In this document: positions 6,781 through 50,458 of the stretch, piece by piece | Layout of the letters: the number at the start of each line of letters is the position of its first letter | How positions within the stretch are numbered: the first letter of the stretch is position 1 | Program-made: the position numbers and the translations under genes | Notes under the pieces: generated by a model | What the model saw: the letters and a program-made list of their open reading frames with translations, nothing else | Told to the model about the DNA's origin: nothing | The model's database searches: none | Assembly: GCF_000003815.2 (NCBI RefSeq) | Contig: NC_049980.1 | Location: 15,054,932 to 15,118,931 of the forward strand | Direction of reading: 5' to 3' | DNA: 64,000 nucleotides | From: Branchiostoma floridae | Taxonomy: Eukaryota; Chordata; Leptocardii; Amphioxiformes; Branchiostomatidae

Positions 6781-6996
6781 ATAGTGAAAAGTTTAAACTT
6801 TGTTCCAACACAAGGGAAGAAACTCACCATAAATTTTCGGCCGAACACTCCGACCTTCATCAGATGAATGATTCGCTGCACTAATCCGGAAGTCGTCGGA
6901 TGACGTCAGGTAGCAGCGAATCATAAATGGCGGGAAGGCGAAACCTGCCACCGTCACGGTTCAATGAGGGTTGATGTGCCCTGATGTAGATAGCCT
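6781..6996. repeat. Left 216-bp arm of the Penelope-like element
   Basis: Exact reverse complement, by eye, of 7290-7505. It carries an inverted copy of the endonuclease C-terminal codons and the 3' UTR, including a hammerhead-like motif on the minus strand. Confidence 0.9.
6827..6867 (-). ncRNA. Hammerhead ribozyme-like motif, left arm
   Basis: Exact inverted duplicate of the motif at 7419-7459, so it reads outward on the minus strand. A transcript of either strand crossing the element would contain one candidate ribozyme. Confidence 0.45.
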
Positions 6997-7405
6997 AGTT
7001 AGGCAGCTTTTGGTGGCGCCTAGGGATAAGACGCCCAAAGAACACAAGTGCGGCGTGGTTTACCACATCCGTTGTACGGGACAGAACCTCAGAGGTCCGT
7101 GCACCGAGTCGTACATCGGGGAAACGGCACGATCATTAAGAACCCGTTTCATGGAACATAAACGTCGCAGTTCAACATCTTCAGAAGTGTCTCAGCATAT
7201 ACACGTCGAATCTCCGGGCCACTCCGTGTCTCTGGACCAAGTTCGCATCTTGGACTCTGAACAGGACTGGTTCGTGAGGGGCGTCAAGGAGGCTATCTAC
7301 ATCAGGGCACATCAACCCTCATTGAACCGTGACGGTGGCAGGTTTCGCCTTCCCGCCATTTATGATTCGCTGCTACCTGACGTCATCCGACGACTTCCGG
7401 ATTAG
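6974..7405 (+). CDS. GIY-YIG endonuclease domain of a Penelope-like element
   Basis: This encodes 143 residues from the first ATG. Visible motifs: GVVY at 27-30 (the GIY part), SYIGET at 46-51 (the YIG part), R58 and H62 in LRTRFMEH, E106 in KEAIYIR, and N118 in SLNRDGG. These are the expected catalytic positions of GIY-YIG nucleases. Cysteines 26, 34 and 43 with HIHVESPGH (75-83) form the Cys/His set seen around the endonuclease of Penelope-like elements. In intact elements it is fused to the C-terminus of the reverse transcriptase and nicks target DNA. Here no reverse transcriptase precedes it, and the first codons lie in the inverted left arm, so the start codon is probably accidental. The frame is otherwise intact. 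Confidence 0.8.
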   Translation: MCPDVDSLVRQLLVAPRDKTPKEHKCGVVYHIRCTGQNLRGPCTESYIGETARSLRTRFMEHKRRSSTSSEVSQHIHVESPGHSVSLDQVRILDSEQDWFVRGVKEAIYIRAHQPSLNRDGGRFRLPAIYDSLLPDVIRRLPD

Positions 7406-10302: not shown

Positions 10303-13300
10303 CTGTAGGGACGACACAGGAGAGAATTGGGTCGTTCTCCCCTCAACATCGATCAGGTATATATTTGTTTGAAGTGCACCATTTGACTTTTGTCAAGTTT
10401 CAATCAAAACAGTCTGGCCGGGCGCTCAGACAACTGTGGAGTTTTACCAGGCAGACGTCAATAATTGATAACATCGTTTCGTGTTGATATACCCCGCTGA
10501 AATCGCATGTAAATCATTGAGCTAGACGGTACTGTACCAGATATTAACTAGAACACCACTCTTCCATTTACTGCTGCTTTAATCAACACTTCGACTCAAT
10601 CAAAAACCCTCGCGTTTCATGGGCGATTGGAAGATCGGTGATTGTGGCGAGTAATTTCCCCAACTCAACCTTAATTAAATCACCATAAAGAACCCGTTGC
10701 CCTCTTAAGACAGTCGGGGGAAGAAATTACCGTATTGAGGTCGTGCAGTACTGCCGCGACACAAGAAGGCTTTTGTTTGCTGAAAATTGAATATGGATTG
10801 CTCGAGGTACCCAGTCGTAAGACACAAAGTGACTTTCTGTGTCGGAAATCCAACCAGCTTAGTCTTTCCATTAGCCATGAGAGTAGTCGGCCACAATCAA
10901 GTTTTCTTTAAAAGAATCTTGTCTCCCGACACAGGAGATGTGGCGGGCACTTAATTAAGTAAGGTTGCACAGTACGGGGTCATTCATTAGTTCTGTCACA
11001 TGCCAACTGCATCACTCCTGCACGCCATTCATTCCATGGTGTACCCACCTTTATAGTGTAACCAGAAGCCACGCTGTCTCCACTGTCCCGTCTTGAAGAA
11101 TACCCAGGCGACGTTGCTCCTGCTCTTGAAGGGTGCGGGGTACTTCTGATCGCAGTACGTGAAGTCGTAGGACGTGTTAGAGTTCCCGATGCGTAAGTAG
11201 TCCGTGGCGAAGTCACAGCCGTAGGAGTAGCTGAGCTGGAAGTCCAGAAAGTTTACCTGTATGGCCTGTCCTGGCTTGGCGTGGATGACCCAGGTGCAGT
11301 TGATGTAGGGGGGGTAGTTGGTGCCGAAGGGATAGCCGGGGCTGTAGATGTAACCCTCCTGAGACACAACCTTCACCGCCTTGCTGCCGCCACACTCACT
11401 GTAAGCGTCCACCACTTCAGGGGAAATGGACCGTGCAGATGGAGTTAGTCAAAGACTGAACAGAAGTCTTTTAACCATGCGATGAATCACAGACGCATAC
11501 ACATGCCCTCAGAACACCCGATATAGATACAAGACTACACAATCATTCTCCACATGTTTATAAATGTGACGCTTGATACAGTATTTCATGCCATTTCCAC
11601 TAGAAGCTGCAACTCCTGATCAGTCTAATGTTTCAAAAATAGCTCAACGAATTTTATGGATAAAAACTATTACAAACATTATTTGTGTGTTAACGTATGC
11701 TATCTTTCAAATCATACTTCCTACGTCATACTCCAATTATGAAATCAATGATTACAAAAATCCAGTTTTTGACGCTGCACGGTTGCCCAGCGATCGTCAT
11801 CTGGTGGACACATTTTACCCGTCAGTCACATTAGATGTTATAACTTATAAGAATGCATAAGATAATTGGTCGTCATGACGTCTGGCCTTGAGCCATTACC
11901 TTTTCCAGGAAATACCTTGCACTTGGCTATAACACCTTTTCACCCTCAACCCCAAAGTTTTTACAGCTTTATAAATTGGCTTACCCTGAGGTTAATGCAT
12001 TTGACCAAATATAGCAAAAGTGCTTATCGGCTTCCATTTGAGCCATATACACTTTTATAGGTAGAGTTAGATTTCATACTGAAACTGATGTGTCATGGTG
12101 CCTTGTGTGCTGGGAGATCATGTGGTAACAGTTCCGGGTGCTCAAGCTCATTCAGGCCATGGTTTGAGATAGACAGTTTCTCTAGATGATTCTGTGTCTA
12201 AGGTAATTTCTCCTAGCAAAGTAAATTGGTATATCTGCACTGCACCAAATTGCGAAATGGTGCCAATTTGCCGCCTAATTTGCAAGTTTTTTCAAAATTA
12301 AAAAAAGAAATGAAATTGGAAGTGTGTGCAAAATGGCACAAAACGACGAACATCACTCTATGGCTGCAAATCTCTTTTTGATGAACTTAATTCGCTTCTT
12401 GATGAAGTTAATTCAGTATGGCTATCTTGCATACTGAGGAGATGGTATTCCAGACGCGGACGTTTGGTTTGGTTCATCTGGACGTCATACGCAGTGCCTC
12501 GCGTTAGTGTAACCGCAAGGGATTTGGCACAGATTTGCAAAGTCGACGGCACAATTTCTCAGCGCTATTTGGCGCAGTCCACTGAGATATACTCTTGAGT
12601 GCAAAGGGGGAGGTTGGTGCCCACTGACCAGATATGAAACTACAACATAGATCTGATCTTCAGTGCTGGCAATAGAGCTCCATCAACACAATCATCAGAT
12701 ACATAGACACTCAAACTGAGACAAGTAACACGCTAAAATAAAGCGCAGAAAGGCATGATACATACTTAGACACAACAAAGGACTGAAAGAAAGAGAGTTT
12801 CGAAACAATTAGAGGGCAGGAGAAGGTAAAGACGATTATATGTGGAGAAATCATGAATAACAATTTGTGACACGTGTCAGATTGCTGTGATATTTTGCTT
12901 CCAAATCGCTGGCTATGTGCGGCAGGTTGTCTCGCGGGAATAAAATTATATTAATACAGGTCAGAGGTCGTACGTGCGCGCTGTTATGGTACGGTAGCCC
13001 CTTTCAACCGTGCGAAATGGGCTGGATAGGTGACCTTGCAGCACAGGTAACATATCACAATATCATGCCATTAGTGCGCCGGCACGCACGCTCCAACCCG
13101 CAGCCACGGGTACCATTCTATGAAATAGGTCATCCGTACAAAATAGATAAATACTTACACACATCATAACAGTTTCTAACATACAGGTGGCAACGTTTGC
13201 AACTGTAGATTGTGCAATTCACTTGGAAAGAAATTGATAAAACAGACGTCAGCATTGACAATGAATGTTGCTTCTTTCCATGGAAATCAATAGATGGATT

Positions 13301-16300: not shown

Positions 16301-19300
16301 CAACGTCTTATCCTGATTATTACCTTATCTATGGCTATCTAAAACGTTTCTCCGCTCGGACGGCCGAGCCTGACAGCCTTTTGACCAGGTGCCAATATGA
16401 TTGATTCGAAGCCATCAATTCTTGCCCGAGTCAATAAGCTGCTACAAGTCCGGCTTATCCGAATGCCCGCTGCGTCCATTCCTGAGTTTAATGTTTCCGA
16501 TAATACGCTATGAGGTCGAGTGCCTTAGAGAAGGCAGCTGTGCGGTGTGCAATGTGTCCCTTCTGTACACCAGACAGACCCCACTTGTACCATCAGAGAT
16601 CCAGCTGTTACCCACAATAACGTCTGACGAGGGGGATGCTGATCTACATCATTGCCTTTCCATATATGATAATCCTACTGAGTCTTATAAGCTACTAATA
16701 GCAGTACAACGTTATAGGTTTTAAAACTTAACGTTATACAGAGATGAACATTTTCAGTTAAAGCTTTATTTGCAAACTCCTGCCACAGGCAAGGGAACAA
16801 ACCAAGGGAAATATCTAGTCTATAGATCTCTTCGATGTTTCTGCATATATTACTAGGGCTTGACCCCTTCCTTTGGGGTACATGCGTGGCCAATGTACAG
16901 TCCCACGTTTTTAATGATAAGGGGGTTTGATAAAATTGTACTTTTTTCAAGTTTTCCATGTTAATGAATTCAAAGCATGTCGACTCTCTACGACATATCA
17001 ACAGCTGAACGGTTTTGCAATTTTGGACGAAACACATACACATCTAATATCAGACAAACAAATTACCTGTATTACTGTAGGAAGAATAACCCAACTTATG
17101 ATGTATGTACAAAACTCAGATTTTTGGCTACCTATTTGGCTACGGCTTGCCGAAAAGTAGTCCTGATATCTGTCAAGATTTACCAGAATACTCTATCCTC
17201 AGGCAAAAATACTATTTCGATTCGTAAAATGCCAGGTTAACGAATGTTGAGCTTATTTTCTCGCCCGAAGGCTTTAGCTTCTGTGAAGCTGGCATTCGAT
17301 TGAATTCCGTAGTATTTATCCATACGATACTCCGCTGAAACCGTCCGTTCTGCTCCAATCACAGCGAACATTAGTTTGAGAGCTTCGGAAGCTGTCGGAG
17401 GTCAGCAAAAGTCAAGCTGATGACCTTTGCGCGGGGAATTGTTATTCCCGCCAGTTTTACAATCCTCAGTCCAATACTTCTAAAGCTGCGAGCAAGTGAA
17501 GAAGGCCTATCATGGATATCAACTGCACGGAGTAGACTTAGGGCCGGAATCTAAATTGATGTGAGAAGTGCTGCTTCTGTCTTTCCGAGCTTTCCCCTGC
17601 ATGTTCCGCCGTACCCAGCTGGGCTGACAGAGTGGATATTCTCGCTCCAGGGAGCTTCGTGGGCAATTTCATATATATTTCAGGAATTATCTAGCTGCGT
17701 GCACTTAGACACAGCCATGTGTACAATTGGTTGGTTTTGAACTCTCAGTGTGGATATCTCGTAAGCTGCCTGTAGCACTAAAGTCTGTATGGATGGAACA
17801 GCTCCCTTTCCGAGCATATCAGTCCGACACATGCCGAGGGGAACACTTTTTGCAAATGGGTCTTAGAGATAAAATGATTCTCTAGATTTTTCCTCGACCT
17901 TCTTTCGAACAGTTGCTACCAGTGGATCAGTCCAAAATATTTAGTAGCGGGGTTTTCTAATGAAAGGGGTAGTTCTGGAATATACTATTCCTACTATCAA
18001 CAGTGACCACACAATCTACGTATAACACATTTCATATACTCATTTCTTGCTTGTCTGTCACCGATTTGCTATATGAAATGACATGATATCTAAAATATAA
18101 GATGTCTGCCCCCTCTCCACCAGAGGCTACCACACCGCTGGCCAACCATAAATCTGATAGACCGCTCAATAAAGCCCATAGAAAAAAGTTTGTGTGGCGT
18201 TTTCTATGTTTTGTCATGGTGTTTGTTGTTCTTTGAATGTCTTTCAAATCATTCTGCACGTATAAATCCAGTTTATGGTCACTTATGTGAGAAAGGTGCG
18301 AACACGTGAAAACAAATAAGAACATTAGGAAACATTTGGAGAAACAAACCTTCATATTCGATGGTGAAGCCCGAGTGGAAATCATTTCCAGTCGTCCGCC
18401 GGTAAAACTTGAGACAGGCCAGGTGGTTCGGTACGTACACCACGTCTGTCGGCTCGGACGTCCCTGTGTAAGTTCTTAACCTCCTCGAGTCGCTGCAGGA
18501 CCCGTCTCCAAAGATCTGTACTTCATCCTTGACGGTGGAATTCCTGGTAACTTCCGAGTTCAGGTCGTAGCCGTAGACTATGATTTTGATGCCGTGTCCT
18601 TGCTGCAGGCTGATGACCCATGTGCAGACCCTGTCGTCAGCAGACATGGGGGTGGGGTAAGGTCTGGGGTAGGCTGGGGACCGGACCCACCCACGGTACG
18701 CTGTCAGGGTTCTACCGCACGCTGAAAACAATTGTAACAATCATTTCATCAGGTTTACCAGAACCTAAGTTATGTAATCTGTTTGTTACATCTTTACACT
18801 TACCTCAGTCCTCGTGACATTTATAAAGACAAACGAACATACATACAAACATTCAGCTCCGATGCAGGTCTACGTACCGACATATTATATTCTTTGGTTA
18901 TGGCTGACGGAATTTTAGAGATCAGTGGTAAACTCGTCATTAAGTTTGTAAGTAACATGAAATAACTTATATAGTTGCACCTTGCTTTTGATTAAGTTAT
19001 GATGTGCTTAATTGTCCATGTCCGTCAGTCGACATGTTTGGCACTAAGGACTGACAAGTAAATCAGGTCAGGTAAATCAGTGTGAAAGATCCATAGAAAA
19101 GAGCAACTTTTGTACATAAGAACGTCAATTAAGATAATCTAAACGGGATTCGTCCTTGAGGCACGACGCAATTAAGACATCCCTGATGACCTGATAATGA
19201 CCATCATCATGAATTAAACTGCGGCCTTTAGAATATTTCTTCAAGTCCTATGGAGGCAAGTGAGCTAATGAGGACATATTTTAGACGACCTTGCAATTGA

Positions 19301-38794: not shown

Positions 38795-41700
38795 CTAGTA
38801 GGACACATAGTTGAGGGGGAAGTTTCCCATGTCTGCCCGTGCTGCACCCCACATGATGAAGCCGATGATGGTCCCGCCCGCGAACATGGCCGCCACCGCG
38901 AAGAACGAGATGACCACCAGCAGTGCCGTCCCGGACAGACCATGTCCACTGGAATATTACAAACAAAACATGACGTATATTTGCATAATGTAGATAATGA
39001 TAGTAAAGATAGTTAATTCAGAAAAGAACTCCTGGGTCTGAATTATTCGCCAGAAAAGATGTTGCAATACAAAATAATCACAGGAAAGTAATAATAAAAC
39101 TATACATTTTCACAATAATGAAGCAATTCAAAGGATAAAAAAACATTCAGAATATTTTGCAACATTCAACATATACGAATTGATACGTCATATAGCCTTT
39201 ACTCAAGCAACTGGATATTTTCAGGTAACGTTAGCATCAACTACCTCTCGTCAGTTATTGTTTACTCATTGTTAACTCTCCAGAAAATGTAACATTCTTG
39301 CGACATTATTTCATTACCTACCCCTAGGAAGGCAATTTTTGCAAGCCCCAACCTCTACCCGTTCATGGCTCTATGGAGCGCCCTATACTGACCAGTGGGA
39401 CGACTGCCCAAAACCGTGATTTAGTCAGGCTACCAAGATATTATTTTCCAAGATCTAAGGGCAGCAGGAAATGAGGTTCTCCAGCGAGGTCGTGACCTGA
39501 GAAGAGAAGGCGAGATTTACCTCATGCATCTACAGACAGCCTTCTGGACAGATAGGTGCTTACCTGGTACACCCAGCCCCCAAACGGGCACCAAACAGCA
39601 TGATGAGACCCCCGAAGAAGCCAGACGCCATGGACACGCCCTTTACCGTGCCCAGCGTTTGGGAAGAGGCCGCCGAGATCAGCGCACCGACTACGGCCCC
39701 CGCGACGTAAACCACCTGTGGGTATGACAAATGTATACTCAAGTGATGAAATATTCCTGTTCTATTGTGATTCTATCTTCTATCTCTGTAAAAGAGATGT
39801 AAGTGAGATATGTTTTACAGAATTGATACAGCTTGCTCGAGTCGGATATTGATGTTCGCATACATCACCATGCAGTTTATAAATTATTCCCAAGACCTAG
39901 GACGTTATATAGGACGTTCTGCATAACGTCTTTGCCAAGACCAAGTCACAATTTCCTTTCATTTCATGCAATGGTTTTCACTGCAGTGCACCATTTTCTC
40001 ACAGGGAGGCATGGTGTACCAAGCTTTGGTTTTCTGCTTCAAATTCTGAGCTAAATTCAGACAGAGAAGTTTTATTCGGTATTCTGTTCTTCTGAAACAA
40101 GACATAATGTTACTTGTGCACGTAACGATACAGAAAATCTTGTTTGTTCCCTACCTGCCACCAGTTTCCCAAACCGGTCCTGTACCTGCTGAGGTACGGG
40201 GACATGCGCTGCAGTCTGTCGGTCACCAGGACCTGGGACACCACAGTACAGTAGCTACTACTGCCCCCTAGCGTGTCGCCCACGCTCAGCGTGATCACCA
40301 GCTGCAGCAGACCGATGAGGATACCTGGAGAGTGGTAGTAGGCGTAGATAGTTGTGTAATAACGCGCGTACGATTGTTGAAGTGTTCGTGGATCTAGCTA
40401 GCCTCCTTTCCACTAGACGATTACTGCTACGACCGCTAGTACAGCATTTGCGTAACCTTTCATAATTAGAGTATGATACAGGATGTACAAGTATGGTTCA
40501 ACTTAGACAGGTAAAAATTAAAGATCTAATCCTTATCTACGAAATATGCGATATGTCAAATGTTTGGTCGCTCAGCGGCCGCAGCCTCTAGTGGAAGAAC
40601 GTGTAAACCAGAAGCATGGAGGGGCATGAGGGTGTCAGCATCGTATTTATCCTGCCTACACTACGCCGAAGACATCGCCACATTCACAGATAGGTCATTT
40701 CAGATGTCATATTTGTAATTTTGTGAATTATATCTAAAATTGTAAAATTGATAATTCTTTCTTACCTCCTATCCATGGTGGCCAAGCTCTAAGGCTCATG
40801 AAACAAGTCCAGTCTCCGTTGTTTGGTACCTACAAGGTGAAGTGGGCATATTCTATGAGGACTCGAATTGACAAACTGGCATGGTGGCATGCCAAAATCA
40901 TCGAGCTATACTATCAACGCTAATGTAAGAGTAAACGTTACGGACAGAAAGCCTGAGGGTAAGTACGAGGGACTGAAAGAGAATATATAAAGAAGAAATG
41001 ATAGCAGGTGACGTTATAGTAATCTCTATTTTGCATCTTGTGCGTTATTTCATCAAGGTCCACACAAGTGTACCTTTGGTCGCAGAACTGTTCCTCAGCG
41101 ATCGGCATCTAGTTAGAGGGTACCTTACCTGGACACATGACACAGAGCTTGTGTTGACATGTGCGTACTCGCATAGCTCTGTCTCCCAGGGTTTGACGTA
41201 CTCCAAGCCGAAGATGAGGAGTGCAATGGCGAACGTGAAGGCAAAGGACAGAGCGGCATACGGAAGCGGTACCCAGTCGTCAAGGCTGTAGAAAACAGAC
41301 GCCATATAAAATGTATATAGCTGTATAGAAGTATAGATATGTACATATATAGATGTATAGAAGTAGAGATATATGGATATATAGATATATAGATGTATAG
41401 ATGTATTCACTATTTTTAGAGCAGCATGGTCTTCTGCTATACAGTTACACATATATATACGTACATTGGAAACACAGCAAGGTTAAAAAGTACTTTCTAT
41501 ATACTATTGGGGCCTATGCGCAGTCAAAACGACATTTCATTGCAAACACTGAATTTCCTTGTTGTTTTACTTATAATTCAACAACAACGAATGAAATTTT
41601 TACTCTTACGTTGATTAACTTTTTAAGAGAATAGACAAGAAGTACAATTTAAAAGGCGACGTACTGTTTCTTCTTGTAGGGCCCGGTTGGTTTGGTGTAC

Positions 41701-44700
41701 TGCACAACCCATGGCTCAACCGCTGCATACAGCGCAACTCCGACAAGGCAGCCGAGAAGGGTCAATACTGGACAGGACATAAAGACAGATTAATATTGTT
41801 AGCATCATCCTGAATACAGACTTTGCCGTGTGAAACATCATAAACACAAATATCATTTGTCTTACCGATACAAATCAACGCTATGAAACTGCAACTAAAA
41901 TTGGAATATGGTATGATTGAAAAAAAGGTTTTATTGTATAATTATATAGTTGATACTTGTTCATCCATTTCTACGACTTCATTTTATCAAAACTACATCA
42001 CATCCGAATTCCATGCCACTTACGTGCCGAGCCCATCCCCACGCCTGCTCCAACCTGTGCCAACACCATTCCCGGGCACTGCAAAAGAGAAAATCGTAAC
42101 GATTCATCAAAACATATATAAGTTATGAACAGTTGGAAAGAGTGCCTAAATCTATCACCTTGCAGCATATGGATTGGATACCCAAAGTTTAAAACAAAAT
42201 ATGCACATTGCCCTTTCCATCTTTATGTTTTATTTACAAACAACAATGCCCTACTGACCGCCCCGCTGATGGTCATGCCCATGCCGAGCAGCAGCCCTCC
42301 CACCACACTGGTCAGCACGCCCTTCTCCTGATGGTTGATGAAGACCTGGCGGATCTCCTGGAACACGGGCCGGGTCACGGGGAGCAGCGCCATCACACCC
42401 AGGCAGAACAAACCTGTCGCCATGGCAGCCAGGAACGCTTTCATCATGATGAACCGCTGGTACACGAACTGGTCCCGGATGACGTTTGGTTCAAAAACTG
42501 AGAAATGGAAACGTTTAGAGGTCATTTCTTCCTCAGAACACTTAAGCGCCTAGTGGCATGCGTACGTGGTACGAAGAGCAACAGGTTCTATTGCTGTTTT
42601 AGCAGCGAGGTCATTTACGGGAAGCTTAAGGCTTCTATCCTTTCCCTTAAATGTACTTGAGACACATCCTCCAATACGCCCTTCTCCTGGCGACCATGTT
42701 ACGCCGCTTCCGTAAAACGGATGAAGCCCTATAACCAAGATGCCCTTGTCTCCGAGTTACCAACTAATTGGAACTGGGCGCTTAACTTTGAGACTACTAC
42801 CAGTCGCCAATCAACAATTTTTAAGACGATTCAGGTGACACCCATCACCCTTCTTTAGCGTCACTAGAATGAACTGACAGAATAAGTCAATACTAAAGAA
42901 CGACCGAGCACTCGAGGTTACTAACTCGTAATCGTCGTATACAAATCACAGAATTGCAAATCAATGGATAGTTCCCATTAGAAACAAAAAAAATAGCAAG
43001 TTTCTTTTAGCTGAACTTTGTCTCATAATTCCGAAAGGAAACTGACTTCATATAAAACGCCATCACGCCTGATGCTCTACTTTGTCGAAAACTTTCATTT
43101 CCGTAATCCTAAGAAAATGGAGTAATTCTACATATATCTCGACTTACTTGAGCAGTGCAACAATGGGTTGACTGGTGCCCAATGTACACGGAAAATTGGC
43201 TTTTATTATCTATTATGTGACAAGTATATCTAATCGAGTTCATTAGTTCTTTTTTCTGCGCAATATTGTATCATGTCACCGATCATATCATGGTACCTAA
43301 CTCGTAGAATTTACATTTCAAAACTTGCTTGGTCCAAGACACCAAGGACATTATATAGAAGTGTGTCCTTGGTAACCTTGGAGAGACCATTCTATTCAAC
43401 TAATGGTCGCAGGGGACCGGACAGTCTTCGGGAACGAAAAGTATGATCTAAAAAGCAACAAAACACACAGAACGTAAGACGAATTAGTCATGACCCAACC
43501 ATGATTTGTATATATTCTCTAATGAATGCTTTTATATTTCATCCCCGGTTTCATCCCGACCGCGCTCCGGTCCGGAGCATTTATTGTATAAGTGTGTCTA
43601 GGCGCTCTGCATTGCGTCTTTTAAAAACAACTTTCACAGCAAGCCAGCCAGTCGGGCGAGCGATGCACCGTACATAAGGGTAGAGTTACACAGTCAACAG
43701 CCCAATACAATAGTTCTCAAGGACGTTCTTAGGTCAAAGGTTAACGTCCGGGAGCGTGATGTTGTTCCCTGGCGGTGACACGAAAACTGTTGACTCATCG
43801 TGGCGAAGCACGAAATTTTCTACGGACTCTGCGGATTTTCTACGGCATGTAACGTCAGCATCTAGGTATCCAATCAACAATGGGACTTCTTGTTGTTGAG
43901 CAAATATTTATCTGACTTGTCCCATGTCCGGAGACGTATATCTTAACTCCTGCCAATAATCTATGTCTAAAACGACATGGCTTTTGTCTCGATATTGACA
44001 AATAATTGGCGTATACATGTTTGTGGTGTCTACATCATAGATATACAAGACTACTGAGGATATACAACATCTGTCTGAATAGTACGTACATACATCGATG
44101 GAGCTCAGGAATGTCAAGGTCGATATCTTTGGAACAACAACAATGGCTGTATCAGTAGCCTCCAACTTAGTACTGTTTCACTGTTGACATATGGACATGT
44201 GCTATATTTGATACTAGTGCATCAAATTGTCCGAGACAAGTAGAAAGACAATTTATGCACTTATGTTCCAACACAATTTCAGTATGATAAATCATCTAGA
44301 CATTTATAACTCCGAATAACAAACAAAAAATAGCAACTTACTAAGAATAGCAACATGATGAAGTTGTAGAGTGGACGCACAACACGCTATATAATATAGG
44401 ACTGCGATACCATCCAATAGCATTATACAGAGCTTTTGTACAATTGTTACATTTGTATAGTAAAATTTTATTTGACCTGATTTTGTTGTGTCAATGTTAA
44501 TAAATGATTCAATGGACCATTTCTTACCTCTTGTTTTTTCCAGGGCGATGCCAAACAGAATTCCTCCTAAAAAGCACGCCATAATCTTCACACAAACATG
44601 CCACCACTTCTGGCGTTCTTTGGGGTCGCTCTCCAAACTAGCCTTCTCATTTGTAGTATCGGAAAGCGCCTCGTCCTTTTTCCTGTCAGCTTCCGCTGAT

Positions 44701-44843
44701 AATTGGTATTTCTTCTTCGCCATGTCGCTGCTTTCTTCGGTTGTTGTCGTTAAACTTGCCTCCCTGTCAGCCCAGGCCACTACCTTGTCACCACCGACAG
44801 GTGCTTCCGGGTGAACTGGCTGGTGTGAGTCTCTTGTCTGCAT
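38795..44843 (-). CDS. YeeE/YedE-family sulfur-compound transporter, nine exons, complete
   Basis: Exons in transcript order: 44843-44528, 42497-42259, 42078-42024, 41767-41665, 41285-41129, 40829-40766, 40324-40155, 39715-39564, 38948-38795. The sum is 1410 bases: 469 residues and TAG. All introns begin GT and end AG and every phase matches. Residues 1-80 are hydrophilic; TM1 is about 81-100. The N-half has FEPNVIRDQ, FIMMKAFLAAMATG and GGLLLGMGMTISGACPG (C186); the C-half has GGLIMLFGARLGAGCTSG (C417) and GHGLSG. These paired glycine-rich re-entrant loops with cysteines define YeeE/YedE proteins; a bacterial member carries thiosulfate through conserved cysteines. C137 (LFCLG) could be a third. 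Transport of thiosulfate or a related sulfur species is the family-based guess. Start: the only ATG before TM1 besides M41; a CCAAT-like ATTGG lies about 35 bases upstream. The donor of exon 2 (GCG|GTCAGT) is slightly off consensus. Confidence 0.88.
40404..40598. mobile_element. Foldback MITE in intron 6-7 region of the transporter gene
   Basis: The terminal words CCTTTCCACTAGACG-like (40404-40418) and GCCTCTAGTGGAAG (40584-40597) are inverted repeats. Inside are ACAGGATGTACAAGTATGGTTCAAC and TTTGGTCGCTCAGCGG, shared with other family members. It sits in the intron between 40324 and 40766. Confidence 0.55.
41300..41410. repeat. TATAGA-type microsatellite in an intron
   Basis: Imperfect repeats of TATAGATATATAGATGTATAG in the intron between exons 4 and 5 of the transporter gene. 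Confidence 0.8.
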
Positions 44844-46593: not shown

Positions 46594-48649
46594 TCTTGCT
46601 CCGACAACTTATCATACATATATATACATACTTTCTTTCTAACGCCACAGTTTAGTCTAGAGGGATTTTTCTAATTAGGCTATGTTGATTTGATTATATG
46701 GATGACATCCGCGCTCGCACCGATTTTCGGCCGTTTCCGAAAAAAAAAAGTTTTCGACCACACAATAAATTGTGCAAAGCAGCTGTAAAATGAGCACAAA
46801 TGTTCCGTAGATTGAAAAAGAAAGTATCAGAAAACAGATAACTTAAATCATAGTCTAATGCCATAGAATGCCAAAATAAATCTAAAGTCAAAGAATAATG
46901 TGAAAGGACAGAAAGAAAAAAATCTACTGTTGGTAGGGGGAGGTACCAGTACAGAAAACCCAGGTCCCGTTCAGGTCCAGAGGATCATTTTCAGGTCCGG
47001 ATCTGAACCTGGACCTTATGGTAATTGGTCAGTTTTGCTACAAATGAATCTGTTTGGTGGATTATTGAACTCCCACTGGCATTTAAAAATCCCATCTCCA
47101 AGTAATAAAGGCTAACTGTCTCTGTACCTTTGACTGTAGAAATTTGGTACAATTGACTATAAACTCTGCTTGACTCCCTCTTGTTGTCTTCTTGGCCCCC
47201 GGTAAGACCCCAAATGCCTGCCGACATAGTGTGTCCATTTTGTAATTGGCGAAACCTGTTCCTCTGATTATTTCCAGGTCTGTTTTTTTTCGGATTGGTC
47301 CAAGAAGAAAAAAAATGTCTTGCACCCGTATAATGTACCGGTCCCTACACCTAACTGTTGGTATACCATACTATGTGTGCTTAGTCCTATGTTCAACCTT
47401 CCTGGCCACTTTGATTTCATACTGGAGGCAACTTTTGTTTTTGGCCAAACTTTTTTTTTATTCGCTCGCTCGCATCAGTTTTGGAGTTCCCAGAGGATGT
47501 CATCAAATCAACATGGCGTTATATGAAAGAATGAGTTAATGCTATGTATACGTGCTTTTATAGTTGGTGTCTTATATTGGGCTTCAAATAACCCAATAAA
47601 TGTTCCCCCTAAAAGACAAACGCCGTTGTAATGAATCAAACAGGTGTCTATTTACACATCTCATGGTCCTATTCATCCTTGCAATCAAAACATGTCACAT
47701 TAAACAATTAGTTCAGAAGACTCCTATCAATAGGTTTCTACATTACCTTTACACGTGAGGAGCACAGTAGATGTTTTAACGATTATTATTATCAATCATA
47801 GATCACAGCATAACAGAAAAAGAAATAATGCTGCTGTCAATCACTTAGTGGAAATGGCTTCCTGTGCCACACGTGCACGTGCACGGGGTGCACCGTGAAT
47901 AATTCAGAAAGCCATATGGATGTCATCTTCTGTAGACTACGGGCCAAATCTAAAGAGGGAGCTCGATAAAACAGAACAAAATGCGTGATTTTACAATTTG
48001 TTCAAAATAGTCCAGCCATACACGATGTAGGAAGACCAGTAGTGACAAAACATGATGTTACAGCCACAAAATCTCTTGTTGGTGCATTCAGGAAGTGCAT
48101 AAAGTGAAAACTAGTGCGGCAGCTCAGTATCATTTACTAACCGCGCTGGTATCACTTCTACAACTTCAGGCCATTACGTGTCCTACTTTCCTGTTTTCGG
48201 TATTATTATTTTTTTCGAAATCAGGATAAAAACGTAGATATAATCCATGAAGTCTACTTGCTGTGGCCCAAAGAAGCAATTTCTGCGCCTGTCACCAGCT
48301 GATTAACCTTACACGGAACAGATGGGTCTGCACACTCTTCAGCTTCAAGCTTGCACCACACGCGGAGCTTTCCCTCAATATTTGTCTCCTGTTACCATGG
48401 CTACAGTACAAGGATTTAATCAAGTTTTCCTTCATATGTTTAGAAACATTAGAACGGGATGGCGGCAATTTGTACTCCACTTGTCGATCACTTTTCTGTC
48501 ATCATTTACCACAGTGTGCCGATGCAGGTACAGAGAAACGGCTGACTGAAATTGAGGTGCCTGGGATGTTTCTTCAGAAAATCATCCACATACAGGGTAC
48601 TGTGCGTAGGTGATTCGAAGCACAAGGAAGAATTGGAGACGAAAGCGAG
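46594..48649. other. Region upstream of the LRR gene
   Basis: No exon recognised. It includes an unclassified dispersed repeat (47395-47510), many T-rich tracts and, near 47866, a CACGTGCACGTGCAC run. The last few hundred bases are likely 5' UTR or promoter of the LRR gene; TTTCTTCAG at 48577 could be a UTR splice acceptor. Confidence 0.35.
47395..47510 (+). repeat. Unclassified dispersed repeat, copy 2
   Basis: It matches the minus strand of 22855-22975 over CCACTTTGATTTCATACTGG, CAACTTTTGTT and CATCAGTTTTGGAGTTCCCA plus GAGGATG. A fragment, TATATGGATGACATCC, also occurs at 46695. Confidence 0.45.
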
Positions 48650-50458
48650 ATGGGCTTCGGGATGGAGAAACACCTTCGCAGTTTTGCCTCCAGCGTGTTC
48701 CTGGTGGCTGTGTTGGTGGGTGTGATGACCGTGGCTACAGGAGGCAGCGTGGCGGAACGGGTGGTTCTGACTGCGGACAACTTACACCGACTACGGATTC
48801 CGGGACATGGGATAAGGCGCCTGGTCTTCCATCGACAAGACATCGTGGACATCGAGGTCGGCACGTTCAACACGTGGTTTACAGTCTACAAACTCGACAT
48901 GTCGATGAACAAACTGACAAACCTTAGACCTGGTGTTTTCAAAGGGCTACCGTTTTTGGTGAGTTTATTCCTTCAGAACAATCTTTTGACTGCCGTGAAT
49001 TCGGAAGTATATTTCCATATCACATCACTCCAAGTACTGTCTTTAAATAAAAATAGAATTTCACAAGTATCAGAGAATGCCTTTATTGGGCTTCCGAAAC
49101 TGAAAGTTCTTGATATTTCTTACAATCGGCTTAAGACGTTTCCCCTCGGGGCTGTGTCGAACATTGATAGCCTGATGCTGAGGTCAGTAAAACTGAACAT
49201 GAATGGAATCAGCACTATTCCAACAGAACTGCCAAGGATACATAGCAAAGCAAGGTATCAATTAGCGGGAAATCCTCTCCGATGTGACGACAACCTGTAC
49301 CTACTACAGGACGCCGTAACTGTAGTGGACATCAACAACACACGGTACACCCAGTTCCAACAGTGCCAGGTGTATAGAGGATGTTATAAGTGTACACAGG
49401 GTGGATTCTATCATCAGCAATGGTGCAAGCAGCTCACAAAGAACCCTATCATTGAGTCTCCACTAACGATCTTCTATGAGGAAGGGACTGATGTCAATCT
49501 CCCTTCAAGTGGGATCAGACACGGAACTCGGTCGCGGTGGTTAACGCCGCGAGTAAACACGTTAGTACGTGATGAAGGGCTGTTCTCAGTGATAGCGAAC
49601 ATGTCCGGTACCCAGGGCGGGGTCTACCGCCAGCAGACCCGTATCAGGGACTGGGCACTAGGACTCGGCAACATCCAGTATCATCATTGGGTCGACACTC
49701 TCCTTTGTACAAAATCGCCCTCGGCAACTTTTAATCCTACTATGAATGCCGTGGCCAAGACGACGCAGAATTACGAGTTTTCGACGTTGACCCCCGACTT
49801 GCCTCAGTCTGCAAATCTGACAGAAGGTGTCCGAGTTATCTATAGAATATACAGATACTTTGTGGAGCACATAACCACCAACTCCGTGTCAGTGCACTGG
49901 ATGCGCAAAATGGAACCCTCCTGCCCGGATTCTTTTTTGGAGGTCAGGATTACGTCTGACGAGCTACAACAACAGCATGTGATTTCGGCGGGAGTGGACA
50001 TCTACAATGCGACTAGTCTTAAGCCTTCGACTATGTACAAAATCTGTGCTGTATCTTTCTTTTCGAGAAGCTGCTCGGAAATGAAGAAGGAAAACGACTT
50101 AGGGTGTACAACGTTCAGGACAAATGATCCTTACAAGCCAAGCCAGAGTAGCACGGAATACAGCGGTTACGTAATTATAACCGTAGCTGTGTTGTCATCT
50201 CTGGCGGTAGTTGGACTTGTTTGCCGGTACTGTACATGTAGGAAGATTCATTCGGTGGGCAAGTGTTGTCAATTGTTGTTGCGTCCCGATGACGCTACAG
50301 AAAGAGGTGTGTACTCTGTGTCTGATCTGGTATCTGTTTACCATGTCTATGCCACCATTCCTGACCATTTGGTGAGTCCCTCCCCTCCAGCGCCACTAGA
50401 CCCTTTCGTCAACCATGATTATTGCACAATCCCTGATGACGTCGCCAGTCTACAGTAA
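48650..50458 (+). CDS. Single-exon LRR / Ig-like / FN3-like type I receptor
   Basis: 602 residues, intronless. Residues 1-35 contain a signal peptide (VFLVAVLVGVMTVATGG). LRRs span about 55-200 (five or six repeats, e.g. LQVLSLNKNRISQVSENAF), with no LRRNT cysteines before them. An LRRCT-like cap follows (NPLRCDDNLYLL, cysteines 212, 239, 245). Residues 271-352 fit an Ig pattern (EEGTDVNLPS, W297, ANMSGTQGGVYRQQT) but both Ig cysteines are replaced. Residues 403-492 look FN3-like (SVSVHWMRK, LKPSTMYKICAVSF). TM is about 506-525. The cytoplasmic tail has HVYATIPD and HDYCTIPD. LRR-Ig-FN3 proteins act in adhesion, axon guidance or innate recognition; the ligand is unknown. The start context GCGAGATGG is good. 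AATAAA lies 23 bases past the stop. Confidence 0.9.
   Translation: MGFGMEKHLRSFASSVFLVAVLVGVMTVATGGSVAERVVLTADNLHRLRIPGHGIRRLVFHRQDIVDIEVGTFNTWFTVYKLDMSMNKLTNLRPGVFKGLPFLVSLFLQNNLLTAVNSEVYFHITSLQVLSLNKNRISQVSENAFIGLPKLKVLDISYNRLKTFPLGAVSNIDSLMLRSVKLNMNGISTIPTELPRIHSKARYQLAGNPLRCDDNLYLLQDAVTVVDINNTRYTQFQQCQVYRGCYKCTQGGFYHQQWCKQLTKNPIIESPLTIFYEEGTDVNLPSSGIRHGTRSRWLTPRVNTLVRDEGLFSVIANMSGTQGGVYRQQTRIRDWALGLGNIQYHHWVDTLLCTKSPSATFNPTMNAVAKTTQNYEFSTLTPDLPQSANLTEGVRVIYRIYRYFVEHITTNSVSVHWMRKMEPSCPDSFLEVRITSDELQQQHVISAGVDIYNATSLKPSTMYKICAVSFFSRSCSEMKKENDLGCTTFRTNDPYKPSQSSTEYSGYVIITVAVLSSLAVVGLVCRYCTCRKIHSVGKCCQLLLRPDDATERGVYSVSDLVSVYHVYATIPDHLVSPSPPAPLDPFVNHDYCTIPDDVASLQ

Follow-up and report, generated by a model that had tools for sequence, protein, structure and literature searches.

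Introduction

In TsuA/YeeE (6leo, 8j4c, 8k1r), a fused protein with three relay cysteines, the relay of StYeeE is described as consisting of C293, C91 and C22, with YeeD giving a fourth cysteine (PMC11073785). The YedE1E2/PmpAB permeases (COG2391; Cupriavidus, Serratia, and Acinetobacter yeeE-yedE-pdo2) are instead encoded by two genes, YedE1 mostly first, and consist of two homologous halves with one conserved cysteine each, in a CPG and a CTSGH loop. YedE1E2 is reported to import zero-valent sulfur via two such cysteines, and the fused YedE3 is reported not to have sped up zero-valent sulfur uptake (PMC10812762). The yeeE-yedE-pdo2 operon is described as being under the persulfide sensor BigR (PMC7315123). 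One YedE subgroup has been tied to selenium (PMC9312934), and YeeE/YedE is listed as a selenoprotein with the motif GUxSG (PMC13188914).

An animal gene of the YeeE/YedE family is already known from the sponge Aplysina aerophoba, in which the host gene is described as expressed and raised by day, as is SQOR (H2S detoxification) (PMC12879404).

Here we analyze a YeeE/YedE gene of the amphioxus Branchiostoma floridae, found in a 64,000-nucleotide stretch of genomic DNA (the window). Like the YedE1E2/PmpAB permeases, the B. floridae (Bf) protein carries one conserved cysteine per half, in a CPG and a CTSGH loop, but it is one chain with the opposite order of halves, an added N-terminus and an added inter-half loop. 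The experimentally tested YedE1E2/PmpAB members are either distant from the Bf protein or were compared with it by means other than sequence alignment.

Gene structure and neighboring features

Exon-by-exon rebuilding placed the gene on the minus strand at 44843-38795, in nine exons separated by eight introns:

44528..44843, minus strand: exon 1, start codon, hydrophilic N-terminus (residues 1-84) and first hydrophobic segment; ends in phase 1
42259..42497, minus strand: exon 2, FEPNVIRDQF..RFIM motif, common to the alphaproteobacterial subfamily
42024..42078, minus strand: exon 3, opens with the C186 codon (42078-42076), CPG loop
41665..41767, minus strand: exon 4, 103 nt, equal in length to the paralogue exon
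41129..41285, minus strand: exon 5, fifth hydrophobic segment with LE..KPW, and the first part of the loop that carries sequon N282
40766..40829, minus strand: exon 6, inter-half loop and AWPPW; paralogue counterpart not found
40155..40324, minus strand: exon 7, YedE1-like half begins (SSSY motif); 170 nt, as in the paralogue
39564..39715, minus strand: exon 8, C417 (codon 39571-39569), GAGCTSGHG loop; 152 nt, as in the paralogue
38795..38948, minus strand: exon 9, remainder of the loop, last hydrophobic segment and stop codon

All eight introns start with GT and end with AG, and the coding sequence of 1410 nt specifies 469 residues and a stop codon, with no internal stops. Splicing was judged from genomic DNA by reading frame, GT-AG boundaries, domain continuity, and the intron phases shared with the paralogue described below. 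The rebuilt model reproduces the nine exons and eight frame-preserving junctions of the preliminary description, and its two intact cysteine loops were found at the residues it had given, SGACPG with Cys at residue 186 and GAGCTSGHG with Cys at residue 417. The Pfam family Sulf_transp (PF04143) matched the protein with 131.2 bits (cut-off 27; E 7.7e-38) across residues 104-445 and profile positions 2-309 of 310. Since the profile is covered nearly end to end, both halves of the family are present. The earlier characterization of the family as mainly bacterial stands.

Several other features were observed in the window. An uninterrupted 614-residue frame at 48614-50458 on the plus strand contains leucine-rich repeats (LRR_8, E 1.6e-27), and a transmembrane segment and a tail with tyrosines can be made out by eye; it is a single-exon LRR receptor-like gene adjoining the sulfur gene. 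Exon-sized CUB-domain frames at 11029-11448 and 18279-18740, both on the minus strand (E 1e-16 and 6e-12), probably belong to CUB proteins that are secreted or membrane-bound. A 145-residue frame at 6968-7405 on the plus strand (YIGETARSLRTRFMEHKR) resembles by eye a GIY-YIG-type endonuclease piece of a retroelement and had no Pfam match at 0.001. Positions 1-1403 are occupied by a tandem array of a 164-base unit, in 8.5 copies with 94% matches.

Conserved cysteines and comparison with TsuA

Seven of the Bf cysteines lie within the aligned halves, and only C186 and C417 among these are conserved; each is present in 73 of 73 aligned rows when UGA is read as Cys. C84, C288 and C299 fall outside the aligned halves.

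A sequence profile (A6) aligned with the crystallised StYeeE over its full length (E 3e-21), placing C417 and C186 on C293 and C91, the first and second TsuA cysteines. Together with the shared Pfam family and fold family, as judged by sequence, and the half order common to fused TsuA, this match speaks for a TsuA-like importer in which thiosulfate would be relayed via the cysteines through the membrane. The position of the third relay cysteine argues against such an importer: StYeeE C22, which is an alanine in the crystallised StYeeE-YeeD fusion, corresponds to F107 of the Bf protein. The NCBIfam TsuA models also scored far below their cut-offs (38.7 against 400 bits, and 18.6 against 645 bits). 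No match to the TusA/YeeD family PF01206 was found in the B. floridae genome by a search whose control was positive in 11 of 14 genomes, although it could overlook an intron-interrupted domain of 70 residues. The protein thus departs from the TsuA label in two of the features tested, the model scores and the third cysteine. The preliminary description had named the protein a thiosulfate transporter of this type; given also that the nearest prokaryotic relatives found are YedE1/YedE2-like pairs, we have withdrawn that assignment and regard TsuA-type thiosulfate import as unlikely.

The cysteines of the two-gene permeases can be compared by position and motif, not by sequence alignment, and on that basis C186 and C417 would be equivalent to Cys101 and Cys104 of Cupriavidus. 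The tested Cupriavidus pair is a short form, as judged by size and unaligned, and two short-form pairs in our tree (L018, L019) lie far from the animal proteins.

Bacterial relatives and the order of the two halves

An earlier profile search of genome contigs gave no confirmed relative. A second search, with a mixed alignment that included bacterial rows, found at least 491 confirmed relatives among 597 stretches, and the best 80 of the 491 were kept. No single frame matched both ends of the Bf protein in any of these 80 loci. YedE1-type genes match the C half of the Bf protein, and YedE2-type (DUF6691) genes match its N half. On sequence grounds, we therefore describe the protein as a YedE2-YedE1 fusion, with an N half (C186, CPG loop) akin to YedE2 and a C half (C417, CTSGHG loop) akin to YedE1. 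Across 147 partly overlapping loci the YedE1-type gene came first in 141 and second in 1, three were ambiguous, and two were read as one frame, one a true fusion and the other a truncated locus. The Pfam model for DUF6691 (PF20398) matched all four bacterial YedE2 genes scanned and had no match in the Bf protein at E up to 1; this lack of a match in the N half counts against a permease of the YedE1/YedE2 type.

The best match was to a Geminicoccaceae MAG (L021), from whose name the class Alphaproteobacteria was taken. In the sample of this class 16 of 385 genomes matched at E up to 1e-15, 13 of these 16 with both halves at 1e-35 or better. The sample of the phylum of the best match yielded 10 of 398 genomes, with only two strong matches, both among the 13. 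Matches at E up to 1e-20 were found in the phyla of Flavobacteriales (9/247), Desulfosediminicola (41/198) and Planctomycetaceae (22/199), the best of them at E 3e-33. Genome sampling was confined to this class and these phyla. In the orders of two relatives with small genomes it covered a single genome each, that of the relative itself.

The 13 closest alphaproteobacterial loci (L021, L111-L122), which we call FEP-type, carry the motif EP..I..Q...F.M.K, as does the Bf protein. They share with it the extended form VFEP..I..Q...F.M.K, a fifth hydrophobic segment and an SSSY-like motif. They differ in consisting of two genes and in having, between their third-last and second-last hydrophobic segments, a stretch of about 14 residues that the Bf protein lacks. 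Identity to the Bf protein, taken over both halves, is 34.4-41.6% (mean 38.7) for the 13 FEP-type rows, 41.5% for its own paralogue and 22.4-31.0% for the 58 other rows. The patterns of the mixed-alignment search would, when compared by eye with the FEP-type sequences, miss most of them. Among the prokaryotic relatives found, the closest as judged from sequence are thus split YedE1-then-YedE2 pairs of an alphaproteobacterial subfamily.

We had considered the half order of the animal fusion to be unique. This view was softened by four fused prokaryotic single chains of 339-359 residues (L140, L163, L164, L165) in which the CPG half precedes the CTSGH half, as in the Bf protein. These fused forms sit on their own branch, apart from the animal and FEP-type group (support 99 with all four, 100/100 with three). 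Three profile searches of viral contigs found no relative, and phages gave two records at E 0.2 that covered a single motif region. Plasmids gave no match at 1e-5; the 198 weak plasmid records at E up to 10 were used as leads only. An AlphaFold model of a bacterial YedE1 (L168) has a mean pLDDT of 59.5.

UGA codons and sulfur-gene neighborhoods

In the sample from the Desulfosediminicola phylum, assigned to Desulfobacterota from that name, 16 of 45 listed places had one UGA inside the match, and one of the 16 also had a UAG. In all four UGA-bearing homologues that could be read the codon falls at the C417 position (GGUTSGHG, GGUPSGHG twice, and DGUPSGHG). These YedE1-type genes (L148, L149, L150, L154) have an in-frame UGA in place of the CTSGHG cysteine, giving the motif forms GUTSGHG and GUPSGHG; homologues free of UGA (L147, L151, L152) have Cys there. 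Judging from the codon and its context, UGA at this position presumably encodes selenocysteine. Together with the published selenoprotein listing, it is what one would expect if this site bears a reactive thiol or selenol.

On a Deinococcus plasmid a metallo-hydrolase, two rhodaneses, TauE, YeeE and DUF6691 lie in a row, with DsrE beside them. We take the metallo-hydrolase for a persulfide dioxygenase. Homologues of the metallo-hydrolase and of TauE occur in 37 and 28, respectively, of the 80 wider-family loci (the best 80 of at least 491 relatives). None of the five Deinococcus queries (metallo-hydrolase, two rhodaneses, TauE, DsrE) matched any of the 13 FEP-type loci at E up to 1e-4, in flanks of about 6 kb or less. 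Three of the 13 have a small membrane protein as a neighbor, which we take to resemble DUF2892, and no sulfur gene is common to the 13. The link to sulfide detoxification drawn in the preliminary description is only indirect, as the metallo-hydrolase homologues occur in loci of the wider family but were not found in those of the closest subfamily.

The varied sulfur genes next to the bacterial relatives, such as TauE/SafE and rhodaneses, and the selenium-linked YedE subgroup (PMC9312934), would also be consistent with a carrier of some other small sulfur or selenium species (sulfite, sulfide or a selenium form), in which the cysteines bind the substrate and do not relay a persulfide. The selenium YedE/FdhT model (NF033796, NCBIfam) scored only 29.9 bits on the Bf protein against a cut-off of 350, and UGA at the C417 position would suit a residue with a redox role more than one that binds passively. 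We consider a carrier of this kind quite unlikely.

Tree, origin and predicted location

For the 73-row tree, 71 of 150 two-half loci were chosen to span the groups, with duplicates and one truncated locus dropped, and both animal proteins (the Bf protein and its paralogue) were added. The animal and FEP-type rows formed one group with support of 97 in this quick tree and 100/99 in a bootstrapped tree of 40 rows. In the best 40-row tree the animal pair is placed within a set of 12 of the 13 FEP-type rows (97/90). An alternative tree with the 13 FEP-type rows as their own clade was not rejected (p-AU 0.074). Nesting of the animal proteins inside the alphaproteobacterial rows, with which the best tree agrees, was accordingly not adopted. 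A phylogeny with animal and bacterial homologues had been suggested in the preliminary description; on the bacterial side it joins the animal pair to an alphaproteobacterial subfamily, and on the animal side the two B. floridae proteins are the only eukaryotic rows, with phyla partly covered. Trees of this composition do not distinguish mitochondrial inheritance from later transfer.

The preliminary description had noted a hydrophilic N-terminus of about 80 residues, possibly for targeting. The extension is real and spans about 84 residues. Its composition, 17 D/E against 13 K/R over residues 1-84 and 5 against 3 in the first 30, is that of an acidic excess and does not support a mitochondrial presequence. 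Of the protein's nine hydrophobic segments, five precede the inter-half loop and four follow it. Within this loop lie three of its ten cysteines and its sole N-glycosylation sequon (N282). The segment layout, the sequon and the loop cysteines hint at a secretory-pathway protein, and nine segments with the sequon at N282 would fit a cytosolic N-terminus. The cytosolic C-terminus of StYeeE, which we deduce from natural YeeE-YeeD fusions (PMC11073785), would by analogy fit the opposite orientation of the Bf protein.

These features bear on whether the protein might be a sulfur carrier of the mitochondrial inner membrane that came with the alphaproteobacterial ancestor of mitochondria and supplies sulfide oxidation in that organelle. 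Sulfide oxidation in animals is mitochondrial, and both animal proteins show alphaproteobacterial affinity. Set against this are the net acidic N-terminus, unlike a presequence, the sequon in the inter-half loop, which weakly favors the secretory pathway, and a tree in which other eukaryotes are absent. We regard a mitochondrial carrier as distinctly improbable.

A paralogue in the same genome

A protein search of the same genome found one further relative, on contig C1 near 18.54 Mb. Eight exons are readable, in two parts, with GT or AG at each boundary observed; neither the first exon nor one of the inner exons was found, and there are assembly gaps nearby. Intron phases equal those of the Bf gene at 8/8 junctions, the first, fifth and sixth being seen from one side only, and the fifth falls in a loop of which the paralogue has a shorter form. 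Three exons (103, 170 and 152 nt) are equally long in the two genes, and an extra intron divides the paralogue's counterpart of exon 2. The two proteins are about 42% identical, and the paralogue retains both cysteine loops.

Shared phases and cysteine loops in so diverged a paralogue show an old, intron-bearing family of two genes. A recent, isolated bacterial insertion lacking animal relatives is contradicted by the intron-sharing paralogue and by the published sponge host gene (PMC12879404), and the earlier statement that this is a host gene stands. Assembly contamination or a decayed gene copy can be dismissed for practical purposes, as nine in-frame GT-AG exons lie inside a 35-Mb contig (in a genome of 513 Mb and 431 contigs) and the diverged paralogue with the same intron phases lies on a separate 35-Mb contig.

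Discussion

Our preferred interpretation, to which we give a probability of about 0.5, is that the Bf gene is a nuclear gene of the animal and encodes the bacterial YedE1/YedE2 sulfur permease in single-chain form, and that its product may act as a sulfane-sulfur carrier. A sulfane-sulfur relay by C186 and C417 is the most likely reading of the sequence data, at about even odds. It is favored to that degree by the UGA site, the invariant cysteines, the BigR operon and the metallo-hydrolase neighbors of the wider family, set against 0/13 in the closest subfamily. The half order of the Bf fusion, which is that of fused TsuA-type proteins, and the reported failure of YedE3 to speed zero-valent sulfur uptake count against a sulfane-sulfur permease. 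As the Bf protein is one chain of 469 residues and not two small proteins, we treat it as probably YedE1E2-like in its working and do not file it as YedE1E2.

In the proposed relay, sulfane sulfur (polysulfide or persulfide) would be captured on one face of the membrane as a persulfide on one conserved cysteine, passed to the other conserved cysteine about halfway through the membrane, and given up on the opposite face to a small thiol (glutathione, for example). The sulfur would there be available to ETHE1, the persulfide dioxygenase of animals, or to rhodaneses. The sequence data establish the gene structure, the architecture of two halves, the two invariant cysteines, the lack of the third TsuA cysteine, the negative search for a TusA-family partner and the grouping with an alphaproteobacterial subfamily, whereas the substrate, direction, membrane and downstream partners are what we infer.

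Among the matches listed, by title or by the start of the abstract, the sponge paper (PMC12879404) was the only one on an animal YeeE/YedE gene, and no paper on YeeE in amphioxus was found. The Aplysina gene belongs to the same family and resides in an animal host; it is likened to the Bf gene through its published description and not through its sequence. Among those matches we did not meet, for an animal, the YedE2-YedE1 fusion, the affinity to alphaproteobacteria, the lack of the third cysteine or the substrate predicted here.

More broadly, and only tentatively, some animals may have a dedicated sulfane-sulfur carrier: a fused, reverse-order form of a two-gene permease of alphaproteobacteria that was taken up early in eukaryotes or animals (from the ancestor of mitochondria or from an alphaproteobacterium of later date), underwent an old, intron-keeping duplication, would move polysulfide or persulfide across a cell or organelle membrane for sulfide handling and redox defence, and was lost elsewhere. 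To our knowledge, how persulfides and polysulfides pass across animal membranes is not settled. The Bf gene offers a testable animal candidate, with two cysteines, bacterial two-gene relatives and a prediction of sulfane sulfur, not thiosulfate, as the substrate. It is also a case in which a gene pair of bacterial type takes the form of a single animal gene, rich in introns, whose tree carries an alphaproteobacterial signal.
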